Shown: piece by piece, positions 45,705 to 49,948 of the stretch | Numbering within the stretch: position 1 is the stretch's first letter | Layout: each line of letters starts with the position of its first letter | Source: Candidatus Gaiellasilicea maunaloa | Lineage (GTDB): Bacteria; Actinomycetota; Thermoleophilia; Gaiellales; Gaiellaceae | NCBI GenBank assembly: GCA_024330215.1 | Contig: JANDLU010000001.1 | Location: 1 to 64,000, forward strand | DNA: 64,000 nucleotides | Direction of reading: 5' to 3' | The notes under the pieces: model-generated | Databases searched by the model: none | The model's input: only the letters and a program-made list of their open reading frames with translations | What the model was told of the DNA's origin: nothing | Translations under genes and position numbers: made by a program

Positions 45705-46289
45705 CTAGCGGTGCTCGATCACGCGGTCGATGATCCCGTACTCGACGGCTTCCGCGGAGGTCATGTAGTAGTCGCGATCCATGTCCTTCGCGACACGCTC
45801 GAGCGGCTGTCCGGTGTGCTTGGACGTGATTGCTTCCATGAGCCGCTTCAGACTGATCACTTCCTTGGCCTGGATCTCGATGTCGGTCGGCTGACCGTGG
45901 AATCCGGCCGAGCCCTGGTGGATCAGGATCTTCGAGTTCGGGAGCGCGAACCGCTTCCCTTTCGCTCCGCCCATGAGGATGATCGAGCCCATCGACATCG
46001 CCATCCCGACACACGTCGTCTGCACGTCCGGCTTGATGAACTGCATCGTGTCGTAGATCGCGAGGCCGGCATAGACGACACCCCCGGGCGAGTTGATGTA
46101 GATCTGGACGTCCTTGTCCGGATCCTCCGACTCGAGGTGTAGGAGCTGGGCCACGATCAGGTTCGCGATAAAGTCGTCGACGGGCGTGCCGAGGAAGATG
46201 ATCCGCTCGTTCAGCAGGCGGGAGTAGATGTCGAACGCGCGCTCGCCGCGCGAGGTCTGCTCGATCACCATCGGGATGTTCGGGCTCAT
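45705..46289 (-). CDS. clpP: ATP-dependent Clp protease proteolytic subunit ClpP
   Basis: A 194-aa ClpP. Catalytic Ser lies in GMAMSMGS and His in [12 protein letters not shown]; Asp is in the following helix. Only one copy is in the window. Start overlaps the tig stop (ATGA). Confidence 0.98.
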
Positions 46290-47653
46290 GCAGGCTCCTT
46301 GGTTCCAGACGTGGGGCTACCGGGGGTCCACAACTTCGTTTCCGAATCGGGCTTCTCCTTGTCGGGCGTCCAGATCGCCTCTCGCGCCTCCGCGACCTCC
46401 ATCGCGATCGGCTTGACCTCGGCCGCGACACGATCGAGCGCCGTCCGGAGCCGGATATCCTCGCGCAGGTCCTCGTGCCGGCCGCTCTCCCAGAGCTCCT
46501 CGAGCACGGCCTCGACGTCCTCGCCCGCCTCCTCGGCCTGCTCGCGAACCAACGCGCGCACCTCCTCGTCGGAGACCGCGATCCCGAGCTTGTCGGCGAC
46601 CGCCTCGAGTGCGAGCTCGCGCGCAACCGAGAGCGCCGCCTCGGCGGTCATCGCCTCGACGAGCTGCTCCGGCGTGCGGCCGGTGATCTCGAGATACGTC
46701 TCGGCCGCGATTCCGCGGCGCTCGAGCGAGCGAATGAAGCCGTTCAGGAGCTCGCGGGCGCGGGCCTCGACGAGCGGCCCGGACGGATTCACCCGCGACG
46801 CGCGGATGAGCATGTCGACCGCATTCGCGCGGAAGGCGTTCTCGATCTCGTCGGCGAGTTGCTCGCCCAGGCGACTCTCGATGTCGGTGCGCAGCTCGGC
46901 GAGCGTGTCGAACTCGCTCGCGGACCGCGCCAGCTCGTCGTCGAGCTCGGGCAGCACCTTCGCCTTGATCTCCTTGACGTGGATCTCGACCGACGCGCTC
47001 GTCTCGTCGGCGAGCTCGTAGGTGACGGTCTTCTGCTCCCCCGCCGAGCTGCCGCGTAGCGCAGCCTCGACCTCGTCGACAAGGCGGCCGGCGCCGAGCT
47101 CGACGACCGTGTCGCGCTGCTCGTCGCCATTCGGCGAGATCAGGTCGACGACGAGCATGTCGCCGTTCTGGGCTGCGCGGTCGCCGGCGGGAACAAGCTC
47201 GGAGACGGTGTCGCGCAGCGCCTCGAGCTCCTGCTCGACGAGCTCCTGCGGCACCTCGGCCTCGGGACGGCCGACCTCGAGCGTCGTCCAGTCGACGACC
47301 TCGACCTTCGGTTGCACCGGCACGGTCGCCTGGAACCGCCAGTCCTGCGAGGCCTCGGTCGGCAGCTCGTAATCGAACCGCGGCTGCGCGATCGGGCGAA
47401 TGCGGACACGCGCCGCGGCGTTCCAGAACCAGCCCGAGATGTGGCTGTCGACCGCCTCGGCGTAGATCCGCTCCTTCCCCAGCCGCTGGAGCAGGATCGG
47501 CGTCGGCACCTTGCCCTGCCGGAAGCCCGGGATCTTGACCGACGCCGCGAGGTCGTTCGTGGCGTGCTCGACGGCGTGGTGCACATCGTGGGCCGGAACC
47601 TCGATCGTCAATCGGACCGTATCGTTCTCGAGCTCTTCGACCGTCGTCGCCAC
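46286..47653 (-). CDS. tig: Trigger factor
   Basis: A 455-aa ribosome-associated chaperone. The N-terminal ribosome-binding motif is GFRQGKVP, then the PPIase domain (about 150-240, [17 protein letters not shown]), then the long C-terminal helical arms. GTG 47653 is nine bases after the arsC stop; a TTG at 47665 would add four residues. Confidence 0.96.
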
Positions 47654-47661
47654 TCGTTCAT

Positions 47662-48066
47662 TCAAGCAGAGCAGCTTTGCCGTCCGTCGAGTCGGGCGGC
47701 GAGCTCGTCGACCCGGCAAGCGATCTCGTCGCGGATCTCGCGCACTCGTTCGAGCGGCTGGCCGATCGGGTCGGCGAGCGGCCAGTCGTGGTGCTCGCGA
47801 CCCGGCAGGCGCGGGCAGACGTCGCCACAGCCCATCGTTACGACCACGTCCGCCCAGGAGGCATCCGCCTCTGGCTCGAGCTGCCGCGGGCGACGGCCGG
47901 TGAGGTCGATGCCGAGCTCGCACATCACCTCGACGACCTGGGGATGAAGCACGGATTCGGCGTGACTCCCCGCCGAGCGCACCTCGTGCTCGTCGTTCCG
48001 CTCCAGGAACGCCTGCGCGATCTGAGAGCGGCCCGCGTTGCCGATGCAGAGGAAGAGGATGCGCAC
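47662..48066 (-). CDS. arsC: ArsC-type arsenate reductase/LMW phosphatase
   Basis: A 134-aa thioredoxin-dependent arsenate reductase relative. The P-loop is FLCIGNAGRSQIAQAF, where the usual CTGNSCRS reads CIGNAGRS. TMGCGDVCP and DWPLADPIGQ follow. Three Cys (Cys7, and the CGDVC pair) could run the disulfide relay. It heads a leaderless arsC-tig-clpP-clpX run, an unusual place for an arsenic gene. No ars regulator, pump or permease is nearby. Confidence 0.85.
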   Translation of the reverse strand: MRILFLCIGNAGRSQIAQAFLERNDEHEVRSAGSHAESVLHPQVVEVMCELGIDLTGRRPRQLEPEADASWADVVVTMGCGDVCPRLPGREHHDWPLADPIGQPLERVREIRDEIACRVDELAARLDGRQSCSA

Positions 48067-48071
48067 CGACG

Positions 48072-48078
48072 TAGGCTA
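48072..48078. promoter_or_regulatory. Shared -10 of a divergent leaderless promoter
   Basis: Forward TAGGCT (48072-48077) is followed by six bases and ATG 48084. Reverse TAGCCT (48078-48073) is followed by six bases and GTG 48066. The two -10 elements overlap by five bases and the entire intergenic gap is 17 bases. Confidence 0.75.
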
Positions 48079-48083
48079 GTCGG

Positions 48084-48661
48084 ATGCGACTGTACGTCCT
48101 CGTCCGCCATGGCCAGTCGGAGCTGAACGCCACGCACCGGATCAACGGCGACCCCGACGTTCCCGTGCGCCTGACGGCGCAGGGCGAGGAGGAGGCACGC
48201 GCGCTTGGGATGCAGATCGCGCACCTCGAGCTCGAGCTCTGCGTGCACACGCGCTTCGGGCGGACCCGGCAGACCGCCGAGCTGGCGCTCGAGGGTCGAG
48301 CCGTGCCCGTCCTCGTGGAGCCGCTCCTCGACGACATCGAGATCGGTGAGCTCGAGGGCCGGACGATCGATGACTATCGCGCCTGGAAGGACGAGCACGT
48401 CCGCTCCGATCCCTTCCCGGGCGGCGAGAGCCTCGACGACGCGGCTCTGCGCTACGCCGACGCGTTCGAACGCCTACTCGACCGTGACGAGCCGCGCGTG
48501 CTCATCGTCTGCCACGAGATCCCGGTGCGCTACGCGCTGAACGCCGCCGCGGGCTCGGATGACCTCGACGGCCCGGCCCACCAGATCGGCAACTGCATCC
48601 CGCACCTCTTCGACGAAGCCGGTCTGCGGCGAGCTGCGCAGGCCATTCGTCGCCTCGTCGG

Positions 48662-48665
<4 letters not shown>
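48084..48665 (+). CDS. Histidine phosphatase family protein
   Basis: A 193-aa phosphoglycerate mutase-like phosphatase with the catalytic RHG motif in VLVRHGQSELN, second His in VCHEIP and the Glu in DDIEIGELEG. Substrate not deducible. Leaderless start; its 3' end overlaps the aspS stop (48662-48665). Confidence 0.9.

Positions 48666-49948
<1,283 letters not shown>

Follow-up and report, generated by a model that had tools for sequence, protein, structure and literature searches.

A likely bidirectional promoter with a single seven-base core between two predicted leaderless genes of Candidatus Gaiellasilicea maunaloa

Introduction

How can an intergenic region of 17 nt serve two divergent genes? 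This question is raised by a locus in Candidatus Gaiellasilicea maunaloa, where an arsC-like gene and a histidine phosphatase gene point away from each other. All positions given below are those of the window, i.e., the whole stretch of 64,000 nt that was analysed, taken from contig JANDLU010000001.1. An earlier note on this DNA had read two overlapping -10 elements in the gap, each placed for a leaderless mRNA, and had proposed that they form a switch between the phosphatase and an arsC-tig-clpP-clpX unit.

This reading brings together symmetric promoters and leaderless mRNAs, both of them already known. Bidirectional promoters, as presented in the work of Warman, Grainger and co-workers, have start sites on opposite strands 7–25 bp apart, with 18 bp as the commonest spacing; a T at -18 on both strands is usual, not required (PMC10268837; PMC12825309). 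At the 18-bp optimum, the -7T of each direction is paired with the -11A of the other, and a start at an A gives the opposite strand its -18T (PMC10268837). Leaderless genes with TANNNT at about -12 are likewise established (PMC3160421; PMC3898074).

Geometry of the Gap

The histidine phosphatase (branch 1) is encoded on the forward strand at 48084..48665 (193 aa; His_Phos_1, PF00300). The arsC-like gene, a member of the low molecular weight phosphatase family, lies on the reverse strand at 47662..48066 (134 aa; LMWPc, PF01451). For both genes, the Pfam matches bear out the earlier naming at the family level. The whole intergenic region between the start codons, 48067..48083, is CGACGTAGGCTAGTCGG, which reads directly as CGACG-TAGGCTA-GTCGG. 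On the forward strand, TAGGCT at 48072..48077 is the predicted -10 of the phosphatase, in line with the genome-wide TANNNT peak described below, and is followed by 6 nt and the ATG at 48084. On the reverse strand, TAGCCT at 48073..48078 is the predicted -10 of arsC, followed by 6 nt and a GTG with its first base at 48066; this assignment rests additionally on the seventh-base covariation discussed below. Reading of 48066-48084 confirms that the two elements, TAGGCT-N6-ATG and TAGCCT-N6-GTG, overlap and have five bases in common (48073-48077). Only the phosphatase reading uses the T at 48072, and only the arsC reading uses the A at 48078, the seventh base of the core.

TANNNT is located exactly at -12 on both sides, and the start codons, measured from first base to first base, are 18 bp apart. 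In both frames, a TAG that is part of the -10 itself stands at the fourth codon before the start, and no ATG, GTG or TTG follows it before the start is reached. Neither the arsC nor the phosphatase start can therefore be further upstream. For most arsC homologs, the alignment begins within residues 1-3. Counted from the predicted starts at 48084 and 48066, the A at 48073 and the T at 48077 make the -7T and -11A of the two directions reciprocally paired. The arsC direction also has the favourable T at -18, supplied by the ATG of the phosphatase, whereas the phosphatase direction has a C at this position because arsC begins with G. No -35 is recognisable on either side, the best matches to TTGACA being 2/6 and 3/6. 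By eye, the 17-nt gap has no AGGAGG-like run on either strand, with a lone AGG inside the forward -10, and Rfam gave no match at the gathering score in 47000-49500. As for the partly symmetric flanks described before, CGAC and GTCG do form an inverted repeat, although a weak one, which is one base out of register with the TAGGCTA centre.

The gap shares with the bidirectional promoters of PMC10268837 and PMC12825309 the overlapping -10 on both strands, the reciprocal -7T/-11A and starts 18 bp apart, which are predicted ones here. In contrast to those promoters, each transcript is predicted to begin with its own start codon, the intergenic region consists entirely of the core together with the start codons, TANNNT occurs without a recognisable -35, and it is the ATG of the phosphatase that gives arsC its -18T. 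With the leaderless genes of PMC3160421 and PMC3898074 it has TANNNT 6–7 nt before ATG or GTG in common, whereas here two such genes share one element. The earlier note took two leaderless products from one box as the unusual part; leaderlessness on both sides has a precedent in the divergent pair prpD/Rv1129c of M. tuberculosis, both members of which are mapped as leaderless according to a figure legend that does not state a shared -10 (PMC3898074); at the present locus both are predicted to be so. The divergent promoters of the EcoRV restriction-modification system likewise overlap in their core and cannot be bound at once, but they are regulated by a C protein, and a leaderless transcript is reported to be absent there (PMC5333194). 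Among the top-ranked open-access papers listed for leaderless together with bidirectional or divergent promoters, none describes two leaderless genes sharing one -10, by which absence is not proven, and a word search of PMC3848588, PMC12340547 and PMC5741613 gave no such pair either.

Leaderless-Type Starts and Spacing in the Genome

To place the gap in its genomic context, stretches from 55 contigs were sampled, together 1.52 Mb of the 3.85-Mb assembly (1384 genes, 69% G+C). Genes were called by a simple codon-usage script of our own, and the same table was used to score frames in relatives. The sample includes stretches that were chosen by the pattern (C113, C114, C157, C123, C146, C156 and the window), so the divergent-pair and seventh-base counts below are somewhat inflated and the genome-wide site counts are unaffected. 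At 1372 usable starts, TANNNT was counted 88 times at -12 and 59 times at -13, with shoulders of 21, 18 and 12 at -14 to -16 and a mean of about 4 per position in the background from -45 to -17. This peak indicates that leaderless-type starts are common in the genome. At such genes in the 1.52-Mb sample no -35 preference is visible, the signal being hardly above that of random positions.

The seven-base core TANNNTA is rare, with 67 sites in the sample. Ten of these have outward start codons on both sides at spacers 5-7, and the 600 other spacing cells hold 32 in total. Genome-wide, CAY-N5-TANNNTA-N5-RTG occurs four times and its reversed-pattern control once. The symmetric sites number 4 at 5/5, 4 at 5/6 (two orientations) and 3 at 6/6, so that spacers 5-6 together account for 11 sites in the genome, compared to 0.54 expected from off-register spacings. 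Among the 232 divergent pairs of the sample, a leaderless-type signal is present on both sides in 22, and in five of these 22 the starts are 18-21 bp apart. The base following the hexamer also varies with the neighbour: it is an A at 8/12 leaderless-type starts with a divergent gap of 15-22 and at 9/156 of the others, both members of each pair being counted. Two other pairs with a shared core in this genome consist of a TrkA-domain protein and a DUF3467 protein (L036, contig C157), and of a 350-aa protein without Pfam match and a methyltransferase (L035, contig C114).

The Locus in Relatives

Homologs of the phosphatase at E <= 1e-50 are present in 43 of 103 genomes of the family, the own genome included, and 30 of the 42 foreign loci were examined. 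In 19 of these 30 orthologs, TANNNT is found 6-8 nt before the start. The remaining 11 lack TANNNT at a distance of 5-9 nt from the start; three of them have TAGNCT 10-11 nt before it, followed by C or G. The seventh base in the 19 TANNNT-bearing orthologs is C in 12 and G in 7, and never A. The conservation of the gap is therefore a divided matter: the -10 of the phosphatase is kept, but relatives that lack arsC at this place do not retain the seventh base of TAGGCTA.

An A at 48078 occurs only in the genome of the window, where arsC stands between the phosphatase and a gene that we take, from its neighbours, to be tig (trigger factor; 46286..47653 on the reverse strand, GTG start at 47653). 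Tig is the divergent neighbour of the phosphatase in 18/30 relatives examined, and arsC is beside the phosphatase in none of the 30 foreign orthologs, within flanks of about 1.5 kb (shorter at contig ends). In view of this distribution, arsC appears to have been inserted between tig and the phosphatase in this lineage only, accompanied by the A at 48078. That the base changed after arsC had been inserted is the order of events that we infer. Elsewhere, 36 genomes have a match to arsC, and 29 of these loci were sampled, with starts extrapolated from the alignment; TANNNT is present at -12/-13 in 1/29 and anywhere in the 36 nt upstream in 3/29.

A Natural Test at gltX

Of the three bases that are fixed in a reverse element, a forward TANNNT already has two, and only the seventh base must be A for the core to be readable in both directions. 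The prediction that an A stands here only where a divergent gene begins nearby held at the focal gene and also at gltX, a set that was found by protein and not by pattern. Of the 61 genomes in the order set (that of the window and 60 relatives), 59 gave gltX; 54 loci were fetched (L197-L250) and the start was located in 51. TANNNT precedes gltX by 6-9 nt in 50 of the 51. With the divergent frame judged by coding score, blind to the seventh base, this base is A in 20/20 loci that have a divergent start 18-21 bp away (examples are L197, L211 and L244; one of the 20 is from another family of the order) and in 2/30 of the others. The gltX gene of the own genome has TACGATG, without a close divergent partner and without the A.

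The association gives a Fisher p of 5e-12, for loci that are related to each other. On a tree of 29 gltX loci, a minimum of 8 changes is required for the partner, and likewise for the seventh base. The supported branches offer only three independent contrasts, of which a mean of 2.8 agree with the expectation and none contradicts it, which is too few for significance by a sign test. For the tree, L203 was set to having a close partner by hand (its gap fits 18 bp, the best-scoring reverse start being 53 bp away); in the counts above it is among the other 30.

Inspection of the sequences of the 20 closely divergent loci shows that only T1, A2, T6 and A7 persist. The inner triplet is GGC, GCA, ACC, CAG, CGA, CGC, CCC, CCA or GTA, and the flanks vary as well. 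The partners in all of the 20 loci but L244 and L250 were compared with nfo (AP_endonuc_2); 15 of them match it, and those in L210, L214 and L216 are not nfo.

Recurrence Across the Order

In the 61 genomes, the symmetric pattern occurs at 108 places at N5/N5, some of which are orthologous copies, at 62 at N6/N6 and at 27 at N8/N8, the last of which is not a leaderless spacing. Another 91 places have N5/N6, both orientations counted. With both spacers one base shorter (N4/N4) there is no place in the 61 genomes, and the local count in the own genome gave none either. The reversed pattern totals 31 at N5, 22 at N6 and 61 at N4; it is a poor null, as ATNNNAT occurs roughly eight times as often as TANNNTA, and spacing controls are preferred. 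All these totals were summed from hand-transcribed columns. In the phylum survey the pattern is present in 120/197 genomes, but outside the order the matches of the reversed control, by eye, often equal the true ones. The claim of enrichment is for this reason limited to the order.

At 33 of the 5/5 loci the flanks were examined for a coding frame (at least 60 codons with a score above 15), which is present on both sides in 18 and on one side only in 15. Nine of the 33 belong to one gene family of genus g39 (L057-L059, L061-L063, L065, L066, L068), with a conserved symmetric TATCGTA before one gene and no visible coding frame on the other side. These loci had been considered as the best-conserved divergent pair and were dropped, as the frame is on one side only; they inflate the raw 108. 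On the far side of TATCGTA there is perhaps an unannotated short transcript.

A second histidine phosphatase, divergent to a gene named by eye as short-chain-dehydrogenase-like, is found at L087-L095, L099 and L102. TANNNTA is present in the gap (18-24 nt) of 10/11 of these tightly divergent loci, the core of L099 being AAGCCTA. This family can serve as an illustration only, as the 20 loci fetched are a subset and 9 of them were chosen by pattern match; of the 11 not so chosen, two are tight, and one of these two has the core.

Proposed Explanation

The gap between arsC and the phosphatase is likely a bidirectional promoter of the known kind, in a compact variant that is leaderless on both sides. 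That one overlapping -10 serves two leaderless-type genes is supported by the recurrence of the arrangement at other gene pairs of related bacteria, where it appears to have been preserved in evolution, by its spacing and by the covariation of the seventh base. The phosphatase -10, read on its reverse face, likely drives arsC. RNA polymerase would open the same -10 region in either orientation, with 48073-48077 used in both and the -11A of one direction paired to the -7T of the other. Transcription would begin at the A of the ATG at 48084 for the phosphatase or at the G of the GTG at 48066 for arsC, so that both mRNAs would be leaderless, with their start sites 18 bp apart. The half read by the phosphatase would be ancestral, as most relatives examined have a leaderless-type -10 before the phosphatase, often facing tig. 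In the lineage of the window, arsC would have come between tig and the phosphatase, and an A would have replaced the C or G after the hexamer, thereby completing the reverse -10. At basal strength, two weak, largely independent outputs are to be expected, not an on/off switch. Taken as a whole, i.e., a single TANNNTA core, two leaderless mRNAs, an inserted arsC and weak, independent outputs, this explanation is considered quite probable.

For the order at large, a more general reading is favoured somewhat over its negation: TANNNTA with two start codons would be a complete intergenic region that has evolved recurrently, the A being gained or lost as a partner arrives or disappears. With starts 18 bp apart, the A of one ATG doubles as the -18T of the opposite promoter, so that start codon and promoter would be fused. 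If this is true, inserted genes such as arsC would have a ready route to capture a promoter by one base change, and two genes may need little DNA, namely one symmetric -10 and two start codons.

Other explanations have to account for the same observations. Possibly only the phosphatase promoter is real and arsC is transcribed from elsewhere, e.g., from inside the phosphatase gene with a normal leader, the A at 48078 being there by chance. It is the forward half alone that is conserved in relatives, roughly 6% of the other leaderless-type promoters (the 9/156 above) have an A at this place anyway, and there is no -35 on either side, all of which would fit; the covariation in the gltX set and in the own genome, the exact 18-bp register and the in-frame TAG 12 nt before the arsC start, which leaves no earlier start codon, argue against it, and it is judged unlikely. 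TAGGCTA is also a perfect palindrome except for its centre, which brings to mind an operator bound by a protein instead of two -10s. Half-sites conserved beyond T1A2-T6A7 were not seen among the 20 gltX loci, where the inner triplet and flanks change, and the distance to the start codons is most often 5-6 and never 4, so that an operator is very improbable. Even less credit is given to a chance match. Taken singly, neither a gap of 17 nt nor two short motifs would stand out, and at 15/33 of the symmetric sites examined the coding frame is confined to one side, but the 11 genome-wide sites against 0.54 expected and the lack of any site at the one-shorter spacing in 61 genomes are difficult to reconcile with coincidence.

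The proposal that the gap is a switch, in which a polymerase on one face shuts off the other so that arsC and the phosphatase alternate, concerns the working of such a promoter. In the E. coli promoters described in PMC12825309, polymerases cannot bind both orientations at once, as would hold for the overlapping -10s here, and one side, when activated, can repress the other. However, all five promoters tested there show little competition at basal activity, being too weak for it, and at the focal gap no strong -35 is evident. The unit arsC-tig-clpP-clpX that had been placed on one side of the switch finds no support either, as tig has a conserved element of its own and in 30/30 relatives examined the phosphatase has no arsC in the flanks covered; tig-clpP-clpX need not depend on the shared gap. 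A mutually exclusive switch is accordingly rated as rather doubtful, slightly more so than a promoter for the phosphatase only. Read-through from arsC into tig may occur in addition to what tig receives from its own element.

This element of tig is TTGAAT at 47660..47665 on the reverse strand, 6 nt before the GTG at 47653, and it contains the stop codon of arsC (TGA, 47662-47664). Across the tig loci compared, T-N-N-A-A-T (TTGAAT, TCTAAT or TGTAAT) is found 6-7 nt before the start in 19/19 loci, the window included. The element type TCTGCTTGAATG / TTTGGTCTAATGG is conserved before tig at 47660-47665 and in L004-L006, L008, L018 and L262-L274. As it is without the -11A of a standard -10, its designation as a promoter is provisional, and the element may belong to another sigma factor or to a regulator.
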